DNA of 64,000 nt, from NCBI RefSeq assembly GCF_022524345.1, contig NZ_JAKWJU010000002.1, positions 2,604,001 to 2,668,000 of the forward strand. Direction: 5' to 3'. The translations under genes and the position numbers were made by a program. Position 1 is the stretch's first letter. The number at the start of each line of letters is the position of its first letter. Under the pieces are notes generated by a model that was not told the origin of the DNA, made no database searches, and saw only the letters and a program-made list of their open reading frames with translations. Below, in pieces: positions 7,112 to 35,698 of this stretch. This DNA is from Streptomyces marispadix (GTDB lineage: Bacteria > Actinomycetota > Actinomycetes > Streptomycetales > Streptomycetaceae).

Positions 7112-8056
7112 TCACAGCAGCACGACGGCCGTGGCGAGGACGAACGTGTACCACCACTCCACGAACCGCTGTGTGCGATGGTCCTGGGCGGGCGTACGAA
7201 GCAGCAGCACCCGCGCGGCCAGCACCAGGCTCAGCGAGGCCAGCACGACGTCTATCGCCACGGTCCACCAGTGGGACCCGGCGGGCGCCACCATCACGTA
7301 GTGGGTGACGGGCAGCAGCGCCACGAAGCTCGCCGCGAAGTAGCCGCGTGAGAGACGGTCGCCGAGGACGATCGGCATCGTGCGCCGGTTCAGTGTGCGG
7401 TCGCCCTCCACGTCGCGCAGATCCTGCACGCCGATGATCAGGAACGTCATGGCCGACATGGTGAGGACCCAGTGCCACACGGCGGTGGTGATGGGCGTCA
7501 CCATCTGCCAGGCGGCGGCGAGTTGGGAGACGACGCCGAGCGCGATGAGGAGGTTCTTGGCGAACCAGTGCCGGTGGCCTCCCCACGCGTAGTGGAGCAT
7601 GAAGAGCAACTGCCACAGCAGCGCCCACTCCACCACACCCAGCAGCAGGCCCAGGGCGGGGAAGAGTATGTGGACCCCGGCGAGGCGCCGCTTGGCCCCG
7701 CGCATGCTGCTGTCGCCGGTGACGAGCGGCCGGAAGGGCTTGTTGAGGCGGTCCTCCTCGACACCGGTGATCTGGTTGATGAGGCTGGAGCCGTAGATGA
7801 AGAGCCAGAAGTAGGCCACGGCGCCCACGAGGGTGAGCGCGGCGTCGTAGGGGCCGAGACCTGCGTTCCTGACGGCGGCGGTGACGAAGCAGGACGCCGG
7901 TACGACGGTGGACCACAGGTCGTTGCTGTTGAAGCGGTAGCTGACGAAGATCTCACGCCAGATCAGGCGGGGCAGCCGGAGGGCGAGTCCGGCGCCGTCG
8001 TGCGCCCCAGCCGGGGCGGGTCTCCTGTTCTCCGGAGTGTCCGTGGCCGTGGTCAT
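7112..8056 (-). CDS. UbiA-superfamily prenyltransferase or membrane terpene synthase
   Basis: The 314-residue protein has 7-9 hydrophobic membrane helices and one UbiA aspartate-type motif as NQITGVEEDRLNKPFRP at about residues 87-103, plus a second motif VQDLRDVEGDRTLNRRTMP at about 214-232. The first motif departs from the textbook NxxxDxxxD and resembles the NQ...ED..NKP.RP form that I associate with UbiA-type terpene cyclases of fungi and bacteria. The start overlaps the stop of the polyprenyl synthase gene by 4 nt (ATGA), so the pair is translationally coupled. The synthase would supply the prenyl diphosphate that this membrane enzyme transfers or cyclises. The two P450s of the operon could then oxidise the product. 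Confidence 0.85.
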   Translation of the reverse strand: MTTATDTPENRRPAPAGAHDGAGLALRLPRLIWREIFVSYRFNSNDLWSTVVPASCFVTAAVRNAGLGPYDAALTLVGAVAYFWLFIYGSSLINQITGVEEDRLNKPFRPLVTGDSSMRGAKRRLAGVHILFPALGLLLGVVEWALLWQLLFMLHYAWGGHRHWFAKNLLIALGVVSQLAAAWQMVTPITTAVWHWVLTMSAMTFLIIGVQDLRDVEGDRTLNRRTMPIVLGDRLSRGYFAASFVALLPVTHYVMVAPAGSHWWTVAIDVVLASLSLVLAARVLLLRTPAQDHRTQRFVEWWYTFVLATAVVLL

Positions 8057-24833: not shown

Positions 24834-25310
24834 TCAGCCGACCGGCGTTCCCTTCTTGACGCCGAGGATCACCACGGCCTGGTAGTAGGTCCATGCGAGC
24901 CCGTCGCAGGACTTCTTGGTCGCGCCGTCGTACTGGGCGCAGGCGCGCTTGAGGTCTTCGTAGAAGGCGCTGTCGACGCGGGCCTTGTTGGCTTCGAAGG
25001 TGCCCTGCGCCTTGTAGTTGCGGTAGCCGAAGTCGTGCCGGATGCACCCGTTCTCGAAGGGGAAACCGAACGGGTTGTCAGGGGACGAGGAGCAGACGTC
25101 GGTCGACCAGTCGAAGTTGTAGTCCGCCCACGCGGCCTGGTCGGCCCTGGCGGCCAGGAAGGCGTTCTGGCTTGCGGCGTCGGTCTGGGTCCAGCTTGCG
25201 AGTACCTGGGGTTTGTCGGCCGGGTCCGCGACAGCGCTTGTGGCGGTGCCGAGGACGGTGAGGAGACTCAGGGAGGAGACGATGACACCCGCGATGAGTC
25301 TTCGACGCAT
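24834..25310 (-). CDS. Secreted prokaryotic phospholipase A2
   Basis: The 158-residue precursor has a Sec signal peptide (MRRRLIAGVIVSSLSLLTVL, cleavage near AVA-DP). The mature domain has the prokaryotic PLA2 signature with catalytic His-Asp in CIRHDFGYRNY and four cysteines for two disulfides (WSTDVC, NGCIRHD, LKRACAQ, KKSCDGL). It should hydrolyse the sn-2 ester of phospholipids extracellularly in a Ca2+-dependent manner. It is monocistronic between a strong terminator and a long empty region. Confidence 0.93.
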   Translation of the reverse strand: MRRRLIAGVIVSSLSLLTVLGTATSAVADPADKPQVLASWTQTDAASQNAFLAARADQAAWADYNFDWSTDVCSSSPDNPFGFPFENGCIRHDFGYRNYKAQGTFEANKARVDSAFYEDLKRACAQYDGATKKSCDGLAWTYYQAVVILGVKKGTPVG

Positions 25311-25368: not shown

Positions 25369-26587
25369 ATCATGAGCATGACAGAACAACCGCTTTCCAA
25401 ATAGCCGCGTGCGCGGAAGTTCTCCGTACGACTCAAGGTGCCGACGAGGCACACGCGGGCCGTGGTACACGAGCCGGGCCCGCGCCGCTGTGCGGCACCG
25501 GACCGGACCGGACCGGGCGTTCCGCACAGACCCGAGCCCCCAGCAGGCCGGGGCCCCGGGGAGGAACCCGGGACCCCGTTGCCAACGTGGGGGAACCCAC
25601 TACCAGCCTGCACTCCGATAACGAACGCGCCCTGAGATCGTCACGGTTCGGAACGCTTCGCCGAAATACGTGACTTCACACGCCAGTCGGGGCAAGAGCG
25701 GCGACGCGCCCGGCAGGGGCCCGGACGCAGTGGGCCAACGTCCGTTCGCCGGGCGGCACTTGTGCGCCGCGAACGCCATGCGGCGACCGTGACTCCCCTC
25801 CGCCGGGCGCCGGACGCTCCGTCACATCCCCGCCGCCCCGCACCGCGCCCTCCGCGGCCGCCGTAGGTCCGGACCCCCGGCCCGCCGCTGACGCGGCCTC
25901 ATTTCCCGCCGTGAGCGGGCCGTTTGGGGATTCGCGGCCCCAGACAGACCCCCGGCAGGTCTCGGAATACCGCCGAAATTCGGACGCATGCGCTCGCCTA
26001 TATGTCTCGCCATTGGAACGTGTCATATCACCCTTACCCCTCCTTAAGTGCCCGTATTGCGAGGGAACTTCGCTCCGCAATTCTTCGGTCACCATGAGTG
26101 ACGATTCGTGCAGGGCCCTTCACAGAGGCCGCAGCCGCAGGTCAGACCGCGCAGGCGGGACCAAGTGCGGTGCGGCGAAACTGAATTCAGGGAACCTGCA
26201 CAACTGGTTCGTACGGACGGCACATGACCCGGGGGGCGCACATGCGGGTGGCTCGTGCGCGGTGAGCTTGATGCGGGAATGTCCACTTGGGACGTCGCGG
26301 CCGGATCCACAGTGCGGACATGACCGGAGTGGCAAGTGAAGGGTTCGCCACGAATTCGTGCACACGGCTACACCTCGGCGAAGTCGAGCGGCCGTATCGG
26401 CGCTTGAACGGCACTCGGATGAGTGGCCGGGCAGCGCGTACACGTGCTTTGATCGGGCCCTGACGCGGAAGTTGAACGAATGGTTCCCGTTCTCGGGCAT
26501 CTGACGACCGCTCGACGGCCGGACGGCTTTCCCCGAGCCGGCCGATGCTATTGAGAACACCAGAGCAAGCGAAGGGAAGCTCAACTC
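25369..26587. other. Gene-free 1.2-kb region upstream of the export locus
   Basis: I find no reading frame with a ribosome-binding site and protein-like composition. The stretch at about 25960-26100 is unusually A/T-rich for this genome and includes a short inverted repeat (ATTGCG ... CGCAAT) near 26056-26081. The precursor gene at 26588 probably has its promoter in the last 250 nt; TGCTATTGA around 26545 is a weak -10 candidate. Confidence 0.45.
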
Positions 26588-26791
26588 ATGGACTTCATTG
26601 AGACCCGCGAGATTTCCGACAACGACCTGGACAACGTTTCGGGTGGCGTCCTCGGCTCCGTCGTGGGCACCGCGGTGAGCACCGCCGACTCGGTCGCCCC
26701 GGTTTCCGAGACCGCCGCCACCGTGAACGGCGTCGCCTCCGGCCTGACCGGTGTCGACACCTCCCAGGTCACGGGCCTCGCCGGTCTCTGA
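26588..26791 (+). CDS. Double-glycine-leader bacteriocin-like precursor peptide
   Basis: The 67-residue peptide has an acidic leader, MDFIETREISDNDLDNVSGG, of the type cut by C39 peptidases after the Gly-Gly at residues 19-20. The predicted 47-residue core is rich in Val, Ala, Gly, Ser and Thr, is nearly uncharged, and contains no cysteine and no aromatic residue. Lanthionine or thioether bridges are therefore impossible. A GAAGGGAAG ribosome-binding site precedes the ATG. The next genes encode an HlyD adaptor and two bacteriocin-type ABC transporters, the first with the peptidase that would remove this leader. I see no modification enzyme within reach. Confidence 0.8.
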   Translation: MDFIETREISDNDLDNVSGGVLGSVVGTAVSTADSVAPVSETAATVNGVASGLTGVDTSQVTGLAGL

Positions 26792-26874
26792 GGCGATGCC
26801 CGTCGCCGGGCGGCGGGGCCGGCAGTGCACAGCCCGCACCGCCCGGTGCATCCAATCCCAGTGGGGTGAAGTGA

Positions 26875-26900
26875 GCCCCGGAACCTGCTTGTTCCGGGGC
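26875..26900 (+). terminator. Hairpin between precursor and exporter genes
   Basis: GCCCCGGAAC pairs perfectly with GTTCCGGGGC around a 6-nt loop, 84 nt after the precursor stop. It would terminate most precursor transcripts or act as an attenuator before the transporter genes. Confidence 0.75.
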
Positions 26901-27165
26901 TTACGGATGCGTACCGGGTAGTTGTGAAACGTAATTGTGAAGTGATGTGAAGGGCTTGTCCCGGAAGTCCGCACAACCCCCGGAGTACACTCCACGAGTC
27001 CCGCCCACGAATTACCGTCGGCGGACGGCGGCGGCACCCACGGACGGTCATGTCCCCCGCCCCCGGTCCCACTTCGAAGCCGATGTGAAGACGATGCGGA
27101 ACGGCGTCGTCACAGAAGGAAGCGTCATGCCTGAAAGCGACGAACGCAGTTGAGGGAATAGCCCC
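26901..27165 (+). promoter_or_regulatory. Upstream region of the exporter operon with TGTGAA repeats
   Basis: Three TGTGAA motifs start at 26923, 26936 and 26946 (13- and 10-nt spacing) in a locally A/T-richer stretch. These could be a regulator binding site or part of the promoter for the exporter genes. No convincing -35/-10 pair is seen, and no coding gene is supported here. Confidence 0.35.
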
Positions 27166-27972
27166 GTGCAGTTCCGGCAGAAGGCGTTTTCCAAGCTGCA
27201 ATCCCCCGAGGAACTCGACCTGCCCGTGCGCTTCGCGCGCCCGCAGGGCTGGCTCGTGCTGCTCGTGACCGTCCTGGTGATGGCGGGCGCGTGCTACTGG
27301 GCCATCACCGGCAGGGTCTCGGGGAAGCTCGACGCGCCCGGAGTCCTCACCCACTCCAAAGGCAGCTACGTGCTCCAGAGCCCCGTCTCGGGTCAGGTCG
27401 TGCAGGTGCTGGCCGAGGAAGGCCGCATGCTTCCGGCCCGCACACCGGTGCTGAAGGTGCGAACGGAGGCCGGATACCGGGCAGTTCGCACCGTCGCGGC
27501 AGGCCGCATGACGTCGCTGACGGCGAAGATCGGCTCCGTGATCACACCCGGCAAGGACGTCGCGACGGTCGAGCGCATCCAGCGGGCCGACGAGCCCCTG
27601 GTGGCGATGTTGTACGTGCCTGGCAGCGGCGGCTCCACGGTCTCCCCCGGCGCGGCCGTCGATCTGACGGTGCAGTCGGCGCCCACCGACCAGTACGGAG
27701 TGCTGCGCGGCAAGGTCAAGGCGGTCGGCCGGGCGGCACAGACCCGCCAGCAGATCGCCGGTTTCCTCGGCGACGCGCGGCTTGCGGAGCAGTTCACCAA
27801 GGACGGCCAACCGGTCGCGGTGATGGTGGAGTTGGAGAAGTCCGCCACGACGAAGTCCGGCTACGAGTGGTCGTCCGAGAAGGGCCCGCCGTACCGCCTC
27901 GACTCCATGACGATCACCGACGGCGCGATACACCAGCCGTCGCAGCGGCCCGTCGATTGGCTGCTCCCATGA
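27166..27972 (+). CDS. HlyD-like adaptor, NHLP bacteriocin system secretion protein
   Basis: The 268-residue protein has one N-terminal membrane helix (about residues 28-46, LVLLVTVLVMAGACYWAI). A biotinyl-lipoyl-like hairpin domain follows (GSYVLQSPVSGQVVQVLAEE ... VRTVAAGRMTSLTAKIGSVI). This is the membrane-fusion-protein layout shortened for Gram-positive cells. It starts at GTG and ends in a 4-nt overlap with the peptidase ABC transporter gene. It likely stabilises the transporter at the outer face of the membrane. Confidence 0.88.
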   Translation: MQFRQKAFSKLQSPEELDLPVRFARPQGWLVLLVTVLVMAGACYWAITGRVSGKLDAPGVLTHSKGSYVLQSPVSGQVVQVLAEEGRMLPARTPVLKVRTEAGYRAVRTVAAGRMTSLTAKIGSVITPGKDVATVERIQRADEPLVAMLYVPGSGGSTVSPGAAVDLTVQSAPTDQYGVLRGKVKAVGRAAQTRQQIAGFLGDARLAEQFTKDGQPVAVMVELEKSATTKSGYEWSSEKGPPYRLDSMTITDGAIHQPSQRPVDWLLP

Positions 27973-30584
27973 GCCCGCGGCAGAAGACCGCCAAGAAGGC
28001 ACGAACCGCCAAGCAGTCCGGCAGGCAGTCCGCGAGGGCGTCGGCCAAGGCTTCGGCGGAGGCGCCCGCGCCCGAGCCGCGTACCCACGGGTCCGGCGGT
28101 GCGGAACCCGGCACAACGGACGCCGGCGGCGGGGACGTTCGTACCTCTGACACGCACAGCGGGGACAACGGCGCCGTCCCGGACGCCGGTTCGGACGGCG
28201 GCTGGGACGGCGGTTGGGACGACGGTGGCCAGAACCGGCTGCCGCCGCCCGGCCGCAGAAGGCGCCAGACAAGCGCCAAGAGCGCCAGGCCGGGCAACCC
28301 CGGCGGCGAGTCCGGTGCCGGCTCCAGCGGCAAGTCGAGGAGCAAGTCCAGCGGCAAGTCCGGTGCCAGGCGCAGCGGAAAGCACCGCACCGGCGCCGGG
28401 CGCACCTCGCCGCAGCAGATACCGAAGCCCAAGTACAAGACCATCCGCACCCCGACCGTCCTCCAGATGGAGGCCGTCGAGTGCGGCGCCGCGGCGCTGT
28501 CCATGGTCCTCGGCCACTGGGGGCGGCACGTACCCCTCGAAGAGCTGCGCATCGCCTGCGGCGTCTCCCGCGACGGTTCACGCGCCAGCAACCTCCTGAA
28601 GGCCGCCCGCAGTTACGGCCTCACCGCCAAGGGCATGCAGATGGAGCCGGCGGCGCTCGCGGAGATCCCCGCACCCGCCGTCCTGTTCTGGGAGTTCAAC
28701 CACTACGTCGTCTACGAGGGGATGGGGCGCCGCTTCGGCCGCCGCGGCGTACACATCAACGACCCCGACAAGGGCCGCCGTTTCGTACCCCTGGAGGAGT
28801 TCGACACCAGCTTCACCGGCGTCGTCCTCACCTTCGAACCCGGCGACGACTTCCGCCGCGGCGGCAAACGCCCCGGCTTCATGAGCGCCATGCCCGCGCG
28901 GCTGCGCCGCACCACCGGCACCATGCTGGCCGCACTGCTCGCGAGCCTGCTGCTGGTGGGCGTGGGCGCGGCGGTGCCCGCCCTCAGCCGCACGTACATC
29001 GACATGTTCCTGATCGGCGACCAGACGTCGCTGCTGGGCGTGCTGTTCGCGTCGATGGGCGCGATGGTCGTGCTCACGGCCGCACTGACCGCGCTCCAGC
29101 AGGCGAACCTGCTGCGCGGGCGCATCATCTCCTCGACGCTCAGCAGCGCGCGCTTCTTCCGGCATCTGCTGCGCCTGCCAGTCACGTTCTTCGCCCAGCG
29201 CAGCCCCGCCGACCTGGTGCAGCGTCTCCAGTCCAACGACACGGTCGCCGAGACCCTCTCGCGCGACCTCGCCGCCGCCGGCGTCGACGCCGTCGTCGTC
29301 ATCCTCTACGCGGTGCTGCTGTGGACGTACGACCCCCAACTGACCGTCATCGGCGTACTGATCGCACTGGGGAACCTCATCGCGATGCGCGTGGTGATCC
29401 GGCTGCGGGCAACCGGCACGCAGAAGCTGCGCGCGGACACCGCCCGGCTCACCAACACCTCGTACACCGGGCTTCAGTTGATCGAGACGATGAAGGCGAC
29501 CGGCGGCGAGAACGGCTACTTCCGCCGCTGGTCGGGACAGCACGCCACGACCCTGGAGGAGCAGCAGAAGCTGGGGATGCCCACGGCGTGGCTTGCCGTG
29601 GTGGCGCCCACGCTCGCGACGCTCAACAGCGCGATGATCCTGCTGATCGGCGGCATGCGCGCAGTCGAGGGCCATATCTCGATCGGTCTGCTGGTGGCCT
29701 TCCAGGCGCTGGTGACGCGCTTCACGGCGCCCATCACCCGGCTCAACGGCGTCGCCGGACGCATACAGGACTTCGCCGCCGACGTGGCGAGGCTGAAGGA
29801 CGTGGAGAACTTCCCCGTCGACTCCCTTTACTCGCGGCGCGAGCCCGTGGCCGACACCCGCCGCCTCAAGGGCCATGTGTCGCTGGAGAACATCACGTTC
29901 GGCTACAGCCCGCTCGACAAGCCGCTGCTGACGGACTTCTCGCTGTCGGTCGGACCGGGACGCCAGGTCGCCCTCGTCGGCGGCTCCGGCAGCGGCAAGT
30001 CCACGGTCTCCAGGCTGATTTCGGGCCTGTACAGCCCTTGGGAGGGAGTGATCCGCATCGACGGGCAGCGGCTGGAGGACATCTCCCGCAGCGCCCTGGC
30101 CGCCTCGGTCTCCTTCGTCGACCAGGACGTCTTCCTCTTCGAGGGGACGGTAAGGGACAACGTGGCCCTGTGGGACCCGTCGATACCTGACGAGGCGGTC
30201 ACCACCGCGCTGCGTGACGCCGCCGTCCTCGACGACTTCGCCCGGCGGCCCGGCGGCATCCACAGCCGCGTCGAGCAGGACGGCCGCAACCTCTCCGGCG
30301 GGCAGCGGCAGCGCCTGGAGATCGCCCGCGCGCTGGTGCGGCGGCCCAGCATCCTCGTACTGGACGAGGTGACCAGCGCCCTGGACGCCCAGACCGAGCA
30401 GGTCATCATCGACAATCTGCGGCGCCGCGGCTGCGCGTGCGTGGTGATCGCGCACCGGCTGAGCACCGTACGCGACAGCGACGAGATCGTGATGCTGGAC
30501 CACGGCAGCGTCGTCGAACGCGGCCGCCACGAGGAGCTGGTGGCCCGCGGCGGCGCGTACGCGGAACTGGTCAAGGAGCACTGA
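27969..30584 (+). CDS. C39-peptidase-containing bacteriocin ABC transporter (PCAT, NHLM type)
   Basis: The 871-residue protein has a Lys/Gly/Ser-rich N-terminal extension of about 150 residues. The C39 peptidase follows with catalytic Cys172 in AVECGAAALSM, His in FNHYVVYEG and Asp in INDPDKG. Six membrane helices (about 320-600) come next, then an ABC ATPase with Walker A GGSGSGKST near residue 670, signature LSGGQRQRLEIARAL and Walker B ILVLDEVTSALD. It would cleave the double-glycine leader and export the core. The disordered extension is not usual in the family. ATG 27969 overlaps the adaptor stop. Confidence 0.94.
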   Translation: MSPRQKTAKKARTAKQSGRQSARASAKASAEAPAPEPRTHGSGGAEPGTTDAGGGDVRTSDTHSGDNGAVPDAGSDGGWDGGWDDGGQNRLPPPGRRRRQTSAKSARPGNPGGESGAGSSGKSRSKSSGKSGARRSGKHRTGAGRTSPQQIPKPKYKTIRTPTVLQMEAVECGAAALSMVLGHWGRHVPLEELRIACGVSRDGSRASNLLKAARSYGLTAKGMQMEPAALAEIPAPAVLFWEFNHYVVYEGMGRRFGRRGVHINDPDKGRRFVPLEEFDTSFTGVVLTFEPGDDFRRGGKRPGFMSAMPARLRRTTGTMLAALLASLLLVGVGAAVPALSRTYIDMFLIGDQTSLLGVLFASMGAMVVLTAALTALQQANLLRGRIISSTLSSARFFRHLLRLPVTFFAQRSPADLVQRLQSNDTVAETLSRDLAAAGVDAVVVILYAVLLWTYDPQLTVIGVLIALGNLIAMRVVIRLRATGTQKLRADTARLTNTSYTGLQLIETMKATGGENGYFRRWSGQHATTLEEQQKLGMPTAWLAVVAPTLATLNSAMILLIGGMRAVEGHISIGLLVAFQALVTRFTAPITRLNGVAGRIQDFAADVARLKDVENFPVDSLYSRREPVADTRRLKGHVSLENITFGYSPLDKPLLTDFSLSVGPGRQVALVGGSGSGKSTVSRLISGLYSPWEGVIRIDGQRLEDISRSALAASVSFVDQDVFLFEGTVRDNVALWDPSIPDEAVTTALRDAAVLDDFARRPGGIHSRVEQDGRNLSGGQRQRLEIARALVRRPSILVLDEVTSALDAQTEQVIIDNLRRRGCACVVIAHRLSTVRDSDEIVMLDHGSVVERGRHEELVARGGAYAELVKEH

Positions 30585-30586
30585 AC

Positions 30587-33500
30587 GTGGCATCCGCCGA
30601 AGGCTCCGCAGGAGACCCCCGCAACGGCGAGGGGCAGAACGAGGCTTCCTGGGACACCGGTCAGTGGGAGACCGGTCAATGGGAGACGGCCCAGTGGGAC
30701 ACCGGTCAATGGGACACCGGCCAGTGGCAGACGGGCCAGTGGGAGACCGGCGCGTACGGGACCGTGGCGACGGGAGACGGTGACGCGGGCGCGGACAGCG
30801 CCACGAACGGCCCCTCGGGCACTGGCACGGGCACCGGCGCGAATACCGCTGTGAACTCGGCCGGGAGCGCCGCCGCGCACCCGAGTGCCGCCCCGGGTAC
30901 GGACGTCGGCACGGGCGCGGGGCAGCAGCAGAACGGTGCGTACGACACGGGCGGGCACGCCGCCGTGCCGTACGCGAACGACTCGTACCCGAACGACTCG
31001 TACGACACCGGCACGATGAACGCAGTCCCATACGGCGCAGGCGGGCACGGTCACGGCGAGCAGCACACCGGTGGCCACGGCACCGGCGGGCACGGCACCA
31101 CGACCTACGACACCGGCCAGCACGCGGTGGTACCGCCCACGGACGCCACCGGCCAGCACGCGGTCGTACCGCCCACGGACGCCACCGGCCAGCACCCCGT
31201 CGTACCGCCCACGGACGCCACCGGCCAGCACGCGGTCGTACCGCCGCCCGCGGCCACCACGGGGCCCATCCCCGCCGTGGAGCCCACACAGACGCCCACG
31301 CCGACACCCACGCCCACGGCCCCCGCCGGACCGGCGGACGCGACCGCGACCGGACCCGCCCACGCGGCCGGACAGGACCCGGTCATCGCCGCGTTCGGCA
31401 TGCTCGGCACGGACGCCGACTGGTCCGGCAGGCGCAGCCTCCAACTCGAAGGCCCCCATGTGCTGTGGCTGGTGACGGCCGGTGCGATGGACCTCTTCGC
31501 CGTCGACGCCGTCCAGCAGGGCCACTGGCACTTCCTCGGGCGCCTGGAGCCGGGCACCTTGCTCCTCGGGCCCATCGAGGGCCCCCAGCACACACTCGTC
31601 GGCAGGCCGCTGCGCGAGTGCGCGGTGCGCCGCATCGAACTGCGTGAGCTGGAGCGGCCCGAGCACAGGAACGTCGCCGCGGTCTTCCGCGGACACAACC
31701 CCGCGGGCCAGCAGCAGGCAGCCGGGCCCGACTCCGCCCAGGGCGCCGACGGCATCGCCGCCCTGCCGCACACCCACCTCGACAGGGCCTTCGCACTGGG
31801 CATCGGCCGCAGCCTCCGGGTGCTCTTCGAGGCGCCGCTCGACGGCGAGGTGACCCCGGACGCCATGAACCCCGGTGCCGGGCAGGGCGGCGGCCCGGAC
31901 GACGAGGACATCCTGTGGATGAACGTCGATCCCCGAAGCGTCCAGTACGGCGCCGAGTTCAGCCCGGAGGCGGCGTCGCAGCTCCTCGTCGACGGTGCGG
32001 TCTGGCAGCGCATGGTGGACCAGCAGTTCCGGCTGCTCTCCGCCCTCGACCGCTGGATCGAACACCTCGAACGTGCACACGAGGACCGTACCGCCGCGGG
32101 CATCGAGGCGGGCGAGGCCGTACGCGCCCAGGCCGACCAGGCGCTGCTGGCCTCCATCAACACCACCGGCAAGGGCGCCTCGGGCCCCTCGTCCGCGAAC
32201 GACGACGCGACGCTCGCCGTCTCCCGCATGGCCGCGCGTGCCGCCGGCATCGAGCTGTCCGCGCCCGCACAGGGCCGCGCCGTCAACGACCGTACGAACC
32301 CGGTGGAGCGCATCGCGCTCAGCTCCCGCGTACGCACCCGCGTGGTGAAGCTGCGCCACCGCTGGTGGCGGGAGAACACCGGCCCGCTCGTGGGCCACAG
32401 GGCGGACTCGGGCGAGCCGGTCGCGCTGCTGTGGCGGCGCGGACGTTACGAGGCGGTCGACGCGGACGGCGTGCGCACCCGCATCCGCAAGTCACGCGCG
32501 GGCGAATTCGAGGCGCGTGCCGTGATGTTCTACCGGCCGCTGCCCGAAGAGCCCATGAGCGCATGGCGGTTGATGCGTTTCTGTCTGCGCGGCACGCGCA
32601 TGGACCTGCGCAATCTGGCGCTGGGCGGGCTTGTCGCCGTCGGCCTGGGCGCGCTGGTGCCGATCGCCACAGGCCAGGTGCTCGGTGTGTATGTGCCGAA
32701 CGCCGAGACCAGTCTCATCACCCAGGTCTCGCTGGCGATCGTGCTCAGCAGCATCGTCTCCGCGGCGTTCATGCTGCTTCAGAACACCTCCATCCTGCGC
32801 ATGGAGGGACGCTTCGAGGCCGCTTTGCAGCCCGCTGTCTGGGACCGGCTGCTGCGGCTGCCCACGAAGTTCTTCGCGGAACGCTCCACCGGCGAACTGG
32901 CCAGCGCCGCCATGGGGATCAGCACCATGCGCAGAGTGATGTCGGGCGTGGGGCCCGTGGCCGTACAGGCGTGCACGGTCGGCACGATGAACCTGGTGCT
33001 GCTGCTGTTCTACAGCGTTCCGCTGGCGCTGATGGCGCTGATGCTGCTGGTGTTCATCGCGGGCGCGTTCATCGCCATGGGGATCTGGCAACTGCGCTGG
33101 CAGAGCAGGCTCGTCGACCTCAACAACAAGCTCAACAACATGTCGTTCCAGACGCTGCGGGGCCTGCCGAAGCTGCGCGTGGCCGCCGCCGAGAGCTTCG
33201 CCTACGCGGCGTGGGCAAGGGAGTTCGCCCGCAGCCGGGAACTACAGCAGCGCGTCGGCCGGATCAAGAACTACACGACCGTGCTCAACTCGGTCTATCT
33301 GCCGCTGACTTCGCTCGTACTGTTCATGCTGCTGGCCGGTCCCGCCCGCGGCACCCTCTCCTCCAGCGGCTTCCTCACGTTCAACACCGCCGTCACGATG
33401 ATGCTGACGTCGGTCACGCAGCTCACCAACTCGCTGATCTCGGCCGCCGCGGCGCTTCCGATGTTCGAGAAGGTCAAGCCCGTGCTCAACGAGCCCACCG

Positions 33501-34258
33501 AGGTACGCGACGGCAGCACCCAGCCCGGCGAGCTGTCCGGCGCGATCGAGGCACGGCATCTGACGTTCCGCTACAGCGACGACGGTCCGCTCACCCTCGA
33601 CGACGTCTCGCTGCGTGTGGAGCCCGGCGAGTTCGTCGCCGTCGTAGGGCCCAGCGGCTGCGGGAAGTCGACGCTGCTGAGGCTGCTCATCGGCTTCGAG
33701 AAGCCCGCCTCGGGCAGCGTCCTCTACGACGGCCAGGACCTCGCCGCCCTCGACCAGGCGGCGGTGCGGCGGCAGTGCGGCGTAGTGCTCCAGAACGCGC
33801 AGCCGTTCGTCGGCTCGATCCTCGACTCCATCTGCGGCGCGGAGATCTACTCGCACGAAGAGGCATGGGAGGCCGCCGAGATGGCGGGCCTCGCCGAGGA
33901 CATCAAGCGCATGCCCATGGGGATGCACACGATCCTCTCCGACGGGGGTTCGGCCGTCTCCGGCGGACAGCGGCAGCGCCTGATGATCGCGCAGGCCCTC
34001 ATCCGGCGCCCGCGCATCCTCTACTTCGACGAGGCCACCAGCGCCCTCGACAACGAGACGCAGCGCACCGTCATCGAGAGCACCCGCAAGCTACAGGCCA
34101 CGCGCATCGTGATCGCCCACCGGCTGTCGACCGTCATGGACGCCGACCGGGTGCTGGTGATGTCGCAGGGGCGGATCGTGCAGCAGGGGTCGCCGTCGGA
34201 GTTGCTGGCGGACACCTCCGGTGAGTTCCACGCGCTGGTACGCCGCCAGATCCGCTGA
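30587..34258 (+). CDS. NHLP-type bacteriocin ABC transporter with long repeat-rich N-terminus
   Basis: The 1,223-residue protein starts at GTG 30587 (AAGGAG 8 nt upstream), two bases after the PCAT stop. Residues 1-250 are low complexity and include two repeat blocks. Residues 265-650 form the N-terminal domain typical of the NHLP ATP-binding transporter family (VLWLVTAGAMDLFAVDAV ... LGRLEPGTLLLG). Membrane helices (about 665-960) and an ABC domain follow, with Walker A GPSGCGKST near residue 1021, signature VSGGQRQRLMIAQAL and Walker B ILYFDEATSALD. It probably pairs with the PCAT. It has no C39 peptidase. Confidence 0.92.
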   Translation: MASAEGSAGDPRNGEGQNEASWDTGQWETGQWETAQWDTGQWDTGQWQTGQWETGAYGTVATGDGDAGADSATNGPSGTGTGTGANTAVNSAGSAAAHPSAAPGTDVGTGAGQQQNGAYDTGGHAAVPYANDSYPNDSYDTGTMNAVPYGAGGHGHGEQHTGGHGTGGHGTTTYDTGQHAVVPPTDATGQHAVVPPTDATGQHPVVPPTDATGQHAVVPPPAATTGPIPAVEPTQTPTPTPTPTAPAGPADATATGPAHAAGQDPVIAAFGMLGTDADWSGRRSLQLEGPHVLWLVTAGAMDLFAVDAVQQGHWHFLGRLEPGTLLLGPIEGPQHTLVGRPLRECAVRRIELRELERPEHRNVAAVFRGHNPAGQQQAAGPDSAQGADGIAALPHTHLDRAFALGIGRSLRVLFEAPLDGEVTPDAMNPGAGQGGGPDDEDILWMNVDPRSVQYGAEFSPEAASQLLVDGAVWQRMVDQQFRLLSALDRWIEHLERAHEDRTAAGIEAGEAVRAQADQALLASINTTGKGASGPSSANDDATLAVSRMAARAAGIELSAPAQGRAVNDRTNPVERIALSSRVRTRVVKLRHRWWRENTGPLVGHRADSGEPVALLWRRGRYEAVDADGVRTRIRKSRAGEFEARAVMFYRPLPEEPMSAWRLMRFCLRGTRMDLRNLALGGLVAVGLGALVPIATGQVLGVYVPNAETSLITQVSLAIVLSSIVSAAFMLLQNTSILRMEGRFEAALQPAVWDRLLRLPTKFFAERSTGELASAAMGISTMRRVMSGVGPVAVQACTVGTMNLVLLLFYSVPLALMALMLLVFIAGAFIAMGIWQLRWQSRLVDLNNKLNNMSFQTLRGLPKLRVAAAESFAYAAWAREFARSRELQQRVGRIKNYTTVLNSVYLPLTSLVLFMLLAGPARGTLSSSGFLTFNTAVTMMLTSVTQLTNSLISAAAALPMFEKVKPVLNEPTEVRDGSTQPGELSGAIEARHLTFRYSDDGPLTLDDVSLRVEPGEFVAVVGPSGCGKSTLLRLLIGFEKPASGSVLYDGQDLAALDQAAVRRQCGVVLQNAQPFVGSILDSICGAEIYSHEEAWEAAEMAGLAEDIKRMPMGMHTILSDGGSAVSGGQRQRLMIAQALIRRPRILYFDEATSALDNETQRTVIESTRKLQATRIVIAHRLSTVMDADRVLVMSQGRIVQQGSPSELLADTSGEFHALVRRQIR
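30650..30754 (+). repeat. Seven tandem 15-bp units encoding Trp-x-Thr-Gly-Gln
   Basis: Seven in-frame 15-bp units encode W-[DEQ]-T-[GA]-Q pentapeptides near the N-terminus of the NHLP ABC transporter. Regular tryptophans every five residues in a cytoplasmic disordered region are unusual. Confidence 0.85.
31112..31255 (+). repeat. Four tandem 36-bp units encoding TGQHAVVPPTDA
   Basis: Four nearly identical 36-bp units encode the dodecapeptide TGQHAVVPPTDA, the last one degenerate. The DNA identity suggests recent expansion by replication slippage or recombination. Confidence 0.85.
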
Positions 34259-34978: not shown

Positions 34979-35251
34979 CCCTCGGAGCGGTCGTACGCCT
35001 CTGACGCCGGGCCTGGCGGTCCTCGTGGAACACCGGGCCCGCGTCGCCCGCTCCCGTCCGTATGCACCCAGGCGTACCTCGTTCGAGTCAATCCACGGCT
35101 CGAAGCGCGACGCACGCCCCCCTTCGCGCGTTGGCGGGCCGACAGGGTGCCCCCGCGTCGTCCGGCCCGCCCCGGGCCGCCGTGCGGCGCGAACACCCCT
35201 CGATTCGTTCCGAGTCCCTTCGTCCTCCGCACCGGTGTCCAGGAGTCCTCG

Positions 35252-35698
35252 ATGCAGATCCGACGTCTCGCCCTCACCGCGACCGCCCTCACCTCCCTAC
35301 TCACCTCGGCCGCGACCGCCGCCCCGCACGCGTTCGCCGACGCGTACCAGGGGCGCGCGGACCGCCTCGTCGTCACCGTCGCCGAATCCGGCAGCACAGC
35401 CTCCGAAGGCACCTACGTGCTCTACTGCCACCCCGCCGCAGGCGACCACCCCCGGCCCGAAGCTGCCTGCGACGGGCTGGACGAGGTGACCACCTGGGGC
35501 AAGGACCCGTTCGCCCCCGTGACGCGCGGCACCCGCTGCACGATGCAGTACGGCGGCCCGGCGAGCGCCCATGTACGCGGCGTCTGGGCGGGCCGTCCCG
35601 TCGACGCCCACTTCAACCGAGAGAACGGCTGCGAGATGAAGCGCTGGGACGCCCTCGTGCCGCTGCTGCCCCGCACGGGCATGAGCGCACCGTCGTGA
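35252..35698 (+). CDS. Secreted subtilisin-inhibitor-like (SSI) protease inhibitor
   Basis: The 148-residue precursor has a Sec signal peptide (cleavage near AFA-DA). The mature protein has the SSI pattern: RADRLVVTVAESG, VLYCHPAAGDHP, AACDGLD, reactive loop RCTMQYGG, and GVWAGRPVDAHFNRENGCEM. Four cysteines match the two SSI disulfides. By alignment with SSI (CPM-VY) the P1 residue is Met in CTM-Q, which predicts inhibition of subtilisin-like proteases. AGGAG precedes the ATG, and a perfect 17-bp hairpin follows the gene. Confidence 0.93.
   Translation: MQIRRLALTATALTSLLTSAATAAPHAFADAYQGRADRLVVTVAESGSTASEGTYVLYCHPAAGDHPRPEAACDGLDEVTTWGKDPFAPVTRGTRCTMQYGGPASAHVRGVWAGRPVDAHFNRENGCEMKRWDALVPLLPRTGMSAPS

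Follow-up and report, generated by a model that had tools for sequence, protein, structure and literature searches.

A 64,000 nt stretch of the Streptomyces marispadix genome (NCBI RefSeq assembly GCF_022524345.1, contig NZ_JAKWJU010000002.1, positions 2,604,001 to 2,668,000), hereafter called the window, contains an operon encoding a small double-glycine (GG) precursor peptide, a HlyD-like adaptor and two ABC transporters. Sequence comparison indicates that this peptide is one of a co-regulated family whose genes are dispersed, a point that goes beyond the initial annotation of the window. The reading that we favour, and consider rather likely, is that the home operon forms the centre of a regulon for peptide secretion that is dispersed over Streptomyces chromosomes, and that the core peptides of this regulon are unmodified and act at the hyphal surface. 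The parts of this reading differ in strength. From the sequences a shared exporter and regulon are very probable, and it is probable that the cores are unmodified; a role of the cores in surface properties or morphology is suggested only tentatively. An NHLM-type exporter, comprising HlyD, an ABC transporter with a C39 peptidase domain (C39-ABC) and a second ABC transporter (ABC2), is present in ~70% of the genus sample with a conserved precursor at its head, and in a third of the exporter-bearing genomes between one and three additional precursor genes with that GG leader lie elsewhere, mostly preceded by the same upstream element and followed by a hairpin of terminator type. What looks new is the set of scattered relatives; the operon itself was already on record in a model species.

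The leaders in the home genome were located with a leader profile at a threshold of E <= 1e-9. This genome is 6.7 Mb in size, with exactly one C39 exporter above the curated cut-off of TIGR03796. It contains four leaders, that of the operon peptide, a tandem pair (C2:3194959 and 3195601) and a single leader at C2:3138338, and the three remote leaders lie ~0.5 Mb from the operon. The genes of the tandem pair are on the reverse strand, ~0.4 kb apart (L025:6795-7043 and 7431-7685, corresponding to ~3194794-3195684 on G000:C2). Pairs of leaders ~0.5 kb apart also occur elsewhere (G525:C1:3854678/3855178, G511:C20:484254/484757 and G468:C40:982806/983293). In a sample of 121 Streptomyces genomes there are 122 leaders, of which 81 are located 1085-1799 bp before the match to the exporter peptidase, one per genome. 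The other 41 do not have that spacing; four of these (G081, G119, G002 and G001) were judged to be contig breaks or fragments and were excluded, leaving 37 remote leaders in 30 genomes, the three of the home genome among them. These lie 0.2-8.5 Mb away on the contig of the operon, or on other contigs. The analysis covered 36 of the 37 peptides, including L057, reclassified from operon to remote; L080, a profile match missed by the open reading frame (ORF) pattern, was dropped. The remote peptides are 65-78 aa in length with several unlike core types, and 13 of the 36 cores include lysine or arginine. They have no common neighbour. ORF clusters other than the peptides themselves recur in at most 6 of the 36 loci, and a shared neighbour gene was rejected on that basis. 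One remote type that lacks the upstream element (leader SRIETRE.AD..LD.V.GG, with Lys/Arg and Phe in the core; L026:6324-6533 and L086:3930-4139) has upstream regions that are alike by eye.

The promoter-like element upstream of the peptide genes is bipartite (Table 1), with the 12-mer CGTGCTTTGATC as its downstream part. On alignment of 47 operon upstream regions this block has a mean identity of 98%, the highest of 140 ungapped 12-column blocks. It is present with no more than two mismatches in all 47, and in 44 of them it follows a TGG after exactly 16 bases. The same block is found at the same stringency ahead of 28 of the 36 remote genes (shuffles ~1%), and where a looser version of the 12-mer was found (29 remote upstream regions) a TGG stands 15 or 16 bases ahead of it in 27. 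There are 79 exact copies of the 12-mer in the 121 whole genomes, compared with three for the reversed-pattern control, and 67 of these are located 57-157 bp ahead of a leader match, 53 of them at the operon and 14 at remote genes. Two further sites precede GG peptides unseen by the leader profile, bringing the total before a GG peptide to 69 of 79. We infer from the sequence that the element is a promoter, in which TTGG would form the -35 part and TGNTTTGAT an extended -10; it is possible that it is an activator site instead. In many operon upstream regions the 12-mer is preceded, at a distance of ~160 bp, by a block resembling GGGAATGTCC, a possible regulator site.

Downstream of the peptide genes lies a strong hairpin. 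Structures of -20 kcal/mol or below are found behind 47/47 operon genes and 34/36 remote genes, compared with 16/30 shuffles, with medians of -35.3, -30.9 and -20.1 respectively. Located between the peptide and HlyD genes, the operon hairpin would suit a greater output of peptide than of exporter.

Leader and exporter occur together. The leader is present in 85 of the 121 genomes and an exporter above the cut-off in 86; 83 genomes have both, two the leader only, three the exporter only and 33 neither (p = 8e-24). The two with a leader only are G001 (a 79% complete assembly in which the leader lies at the end of a contig) and G119 (leader near a contig end), while the three with an exporter only are G028 and G120 (exporter at contig ends) and G038, which has another exporter type (907 bits). 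All 83 genomes with an exporter scoring at least 986 bits carry the leader. There is a single exporter match in each of the 86 genomes (E <= 1e-200); in a wider class sample one genome, G256, has two exporters of the type. Remote leaders are found in 30 of the 86 exporter-bearing genomes and in none of the other 35 (p = 1e-5), or in one of 35 if the G001 fragment is counted as remote (p = 1e-4). Within the class sample (296 genomes, 114 genera) the leader is found in 22 genomes, all Streptomyces, while the exporter family extends to eight genera (33 genomes at E <= 1e-200, 26 above the cut-off). In an order sample of 197 genomes the leader is present in 137, spanning two of six genera. The lower-scoring NHLM exporter of the leader-less G038 (L101, G038:C1:380000-396000) has as neighbours, by eye, a SagB-like oxidoreductase, a cupin-like protein and a 42-aa GG peptide.

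The features of the home operon are collected in Table 1.

Table 1. Features of the home operon and its upstream region (coordinates in the window)
Feature	Position	Strand	Basis or remark
Second conserved block, GGGAATGTCC, upstream of the operon peptide	26275..26284	+	Aligned upstream regions (n = 47)
Bipartite promoter-like element, GAGTGG-N16-CGTGCTTTGATC; 12-mer at 26443-26454	26421..26454	+	Also found before remote peptide genes
Conserved ribosome-binding-site-like GAAGGGAA	26571..26578	+	Upstream alignment
Precursor peptide, 67 aa (20-residue double-glycine leader, 47-residue core)	26588..26791	+	ORF, orthologues
Strong terminator- or attenuator-like hairpin in the gap between the peptide and HlyD genes	26871..26904	+	
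HlyD-like adaptor, TIGR03794	27166..27972	+	Above curated cut-off
C39 peptidase/permease/ATPase (C39-ABC), TIGR03796	27969..30584	+	Curated cut-off, domain match
ABC2, permease/ATPase without C39 match, TIGR03797, long low-complexity N-terminal extension	30587..34258	+	

The GG of the precursor is formed by residues 19 and 20, and the end of the leader, EISDNDLDNVSGG, fits the double-glycine consensus. The core contains no Cys, Phe, Trp, Tyr, Lys or Arg, so that the cysteine- and aromatic-free core described by the initial annotation is borne out, as is the adjacency of the C39 transporter, HlyD adaptor and NHLP transporter. All three exporter proteins score above the curated cut-offs (HlyD 161.6 bits against 156.2; C39-ABC 1007.2 against 853.3; ABC2 877.7 against 709.4), which by these tests places the exporter within the NHLM export families. 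The start codon of the C39-ABC gene overlaps the stop of the HlyD gene. The C39 domain retains Q166, C172, H245 and D265, which we take to be the functional residues; a family search for a C39 domain in ABC2 gave no match. The match of ABC2 to TIGR03797 begins at residue 540, and its N-terminal extension comprises tandem TGQWET-like and TGQHAVVPPTDA-like repeats (window 30650-31260). No NCBIfam family matches the precursor at E <= 0.01, including TIGR03793 (NHLP) and TIGR03798 (Nif11), and by the tests run the peptide lies outside these precursor families and is not a lanthipeptide.

Eighteen related loci were retrieved, all from Streptomyces. The ABC genes stand beside the peptide in all 17 homologous loci compared (the window included, on the basis of ORFs of at least 80 aa); HlyD was detected in 11, the shortfall reflecting a limit of the ORF picker. 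Neighbours other than these recur in at most six of the 17. The operon is flanked by a prokaryotic phospholipase A2 (24834-25310, - strand) and a subtilisin-inhibitor-like protein (35147-35698, + strand); Pfam assigns seven flanking genes of the window to phospholipase A2, CBS, 5'-nucleotidase, SSI and D-Ala-D-Ala carboxypeptidase, with two having no family.

For comparison of the cores, 40 distinct operon cores were used, not counting that of the window. Two loci (L019:9001-9246 and L048:1079-1324) were excluded for a shifted C-terminus; these have an intact operon leader and an apparently frame-shifted, Pro/Ser/Arg-rich C-terminal half, and are identical to each other. The 40 cores are 45-53 residues long with a mean net charge of -2.3. 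None contains Cys, Lys or Arg, and aromatic residues occur in one. They include 163 GxxxG motifs, compared with 64.5 +/- 6.7 on shuffling (0/500 shuffles reach the observed number), in a test that treats related cores as independent; the remote cores include 81 (55.5 +/- 5.7 shuffled). Relative to shuffles, the hydrophobic moments of the operon cores lean toward the period of a helix and those of the remote cores toward that of a strand, in sets of related sequences, and the value for the window core by itself falls short of significance. Among five close operon peptide sequences the leader has a pN (proportion of non-synonymous differences) of 0, and the core a pN/pS (its ratio to the proportion of synonymous differences) of 0.21. 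The home core is therefore under purifying selection among close relatives. The operon is more than a chance arrangement, because the same layout is found in orthologues of many Streptomyces together with this pattern of pN and pN/pS. In six genomes having both types the estimate is 0.62 (0.38-1.04) for the operon core and 1.32 (0.79-2.89) for one remote core type; since these intervals overlap, faster evolution of the remote cores is not claimed.

The initial annotation considered this its best candidate for an undescribed system, and that does not stand. By gene order and description the home operon is the counterpart of SCO0753-0756 of Streptomyces coelicolor, for which the passages of PMC6629963 that deal with it describe a hydrophobic 77-aa peptide, remarking on its missing cysteine, followed by a homologue of HlyD and a pair of ABC genes, and report conservation across many Streptomyces. 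The home peptide, at 67 aa, is shorter; compared by description, the operons have no other known difference. According to the same passages activation of the two-component system SCO5282/5283 induces the operon, which is nearly silent in the null mutant. In the dispersed-growing SCO5282-D125G strain SCO0753 is the most overexpressed gene (log2 6.3), with the exporter genes at log2 4.25-4.4 (PMC6629963). Elsewhere the operon is named a bacteriocin cluster (PMC5733086) or bacteriocin biosynthesis (PMC6414726), and SCO0756 is listed among up-regulated efflux genes (PMC5882110), as far as the relevant passages go. The dispersed family and the shared element are not mentioned in the SCO0753-0756 passages of PMC6629963, and among the matches listed from the open-licence literature no earlier account was found of either unlinked GG peptides or this element in Streptomyces.

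These observations suggest how the regulon may work. A signal, acting at least in part through SCO5282/5283 (published for the operon only), would raise transcription from the shared element, whereby a common regulator would switch on the whole set of peptides. The precursors would then build up, the C39 domain would cut after the GG, and HlyD, C39-ABC and ABC2 would export every core, home and remote. Outside the cell the cores would act unmodified, and these hydrophobic, anionic glycine-zipper peptides may bind one another or the surface of the hyphae. As a coating, or by changing the properties of that surface, the home peptide would favour dispersed growth, with the remote peptides contributing strain-specific cores. 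In line with this reading, the orthologous operon has been found induced in a strain that grows dispersed (PMC6629963). That a genus-wide layer or code of unmodified peptides on the hyphae, formed by the conserved home peptide and its strain-specific, unlinked companions under one private promoter signal and through one exporter, governs adhesion, dispersal or kin recognition is a bolder proposal that we regard as unlikely.

A number of observations weigh against a single regulon of unmodified peptides. No recognised GG peptide follows ten of the 79 exact 12-mer sites, and eight of the 36 remote upstream regions lack the 12-mer at two mismatches. In the home genome itself the tandem pair has the 12-mer at four mismatches (scoring 11.9 and 11.5 on the full element profile, where 99.9% of shuffles fall below 0.74), and the third remote peptide matches neither the 12-mer nor the full profile. 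A single cysteine is present in five of the 36 remote cores and an aromatic residue in 24. Five lower-scoring exporters (861-946 bits) are found in Streptomyces genomes without the leader, including G382 and G406 of the class sample (926 and 946 bits). The kinship of the cores in the GxxxG test counts on the same side, as does the predicted status of the export, cleavage, mass and phenotype of the peptides.

The cores might instead be altered in trans, as the initial annotation also allowed, a distant enzyme such as a radical SAM epimerase or a LanM dehydratase acting on their Val, Ala, Ser and Thr residues before export, as in a ribosomally synthesized and post-translationally modified peptide. 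Proteusin cores, which are modified, are similar in composition to the home core. The exporter family serves modified peptides in other systems described in PMC2887384, in the part of that source concerned, and the home genome has both a LanM cluster and one SPASM radical SAM gene. The LanM cluster (G000:C2:1840369-1848099; L033, L099) includes two LanM-family matches and a LanT-like C39 ABC gene, and the leader pattern finds no peptide of the present GG family there. LanM is found in 34 of the 121 genomes, 20 of 85 with the leader and 14 of 36 without (p = 0.12). Modification by this cluster was judged unlikely because leaders and LanM are not associated. Lanthionine rings require a core cysteine, which the home core and all 40 operon cores lack, and LanM neither adjoins the operon nor is associated with the leader across the genomes. 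As the initial annotation had proposed, no modification enzyme is seen at the locus; there is no maturase among the Pfam results for the seven flanking genes, and no recurrent enzyme in the 17 operon loci. Beside the remote peptides, where 100 of 123 flanking proteins were scanned, none was seen among the first 25 of 113 Pfam families, so that single matches could escape, and searches of 205 ORFs in the 36 loci by regular expression and BLAST found no LanM-like protein and no CxxxCxxC (first 250 residues) or CHG motif. Within their limits these scans do not support a maturase adjoining the remote peptides, and homologues are thus not invariably beside a modification enzyme, the situation that would have undermined the initial proposal. 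For the PoyD epimerase there were no matches in the 121 genomes, but the control was silent everywhere so that absence is not demonstrated; LanM and PoyD were the enzyme families profiled. On this evidence modification in trans is improbable.

That the peptides are unmodified bacteriocins of class II type, antimicrobial, with a dedicated exporter and a two-component switch like the streptococcal regulons, is less improbable, although we still consider it unlikely. The GG leader and C39 exporter typical of the class are both present, and the dispersed co-regulated genes, the GxxxG enrichment and the strong variation among some remote cores are all in keeping with it. A cationic core is usual, though not strict, for such bacteriocins, whereas the operon cores are anionic and devoid of Lys and Arg. 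Moreover no immunity-gene-like neighbour recurs among the ORFs of at least 80 aa in the 17 loci, the home core is under purifying selection in close relatives, and the faster change that might be sought in the remote cores is unsupported. It is very unlikely that the cores are pheromones for a distant receptor, with the promoter element as the output. Cores of 45-53 residues are long for a pheromone, and across the 17 loci the operon has no recurrent neighbour that encodes a receptor or kinase. Streptococcal GG peptides that use the same export route do include pheromones, according to the pertinent part of PMC5295010, but the extracellular loop of the published kinase has just four residues in the account given in PMC6629963.

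A dispersed regulon, with one exporter, one promoter-like signal and several unlinked peptides, is on our preferred reading the unit for study. The S. coelicolor papers label the operon a bacteriocin or lanthipeptide cluster; the defining features tested exclude a lanthipeptide, and bacteriocin remains a putative term. The 12-mer served as a short DNA tag that revealed further members of the family. If the reading is correct, a single promoter signal and a single exporter serve both a conserved home peptide and its strain-specific companions, and deletion of the one exporter should abolish every peptide together, which opens a long-standing question to direct test. The published morphology switch, which matters for fermentation, would thereby be tied to a specified group of peptides predicted to be secreted.

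SapB and AmfS are morphogenetic lanthipeptides, and SapB requires Cys-based rings and a synthetase. The home peptide resembles them as a hydrophobic peptide tied to hyphal morphology, predicted here to be secreted, and differs in that the rings and synthetase are absent. SapB is taken up in PMC6629963 as well. With the NHLM/Nif11 systems of Haft et al. 2010 (PMC2887384, the portions describing them) the operon shares the same three exporter families, and the arrangement in which a genome combines a single export cluster with several precursors. Unlike those systems, the leader here is short, without an NCBIfam family match, and no maturase was seen. Dispersal of GG-peptide genes is a feature of Streptococcus mutans. 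The streptococcal regulons (Blp/Com, NlmTE) are similar in their double-glycine precursors, in the use of one C39 exporter for more than one peptide, and in a conserved promoter element, there under two-component control, in the sections of PMC5295010 that cover them. They differ in that neither a pheromone nor a recurrent immunity gene was seen in the present system, which has an NHLM-type exporter with a second ABC transporter, an actinomycete host and anionic cores. Common to both is the plan of a dispersed regulon, found here as several unlinked GG precursors, a single exporter per genome and a shared promoter-like element.

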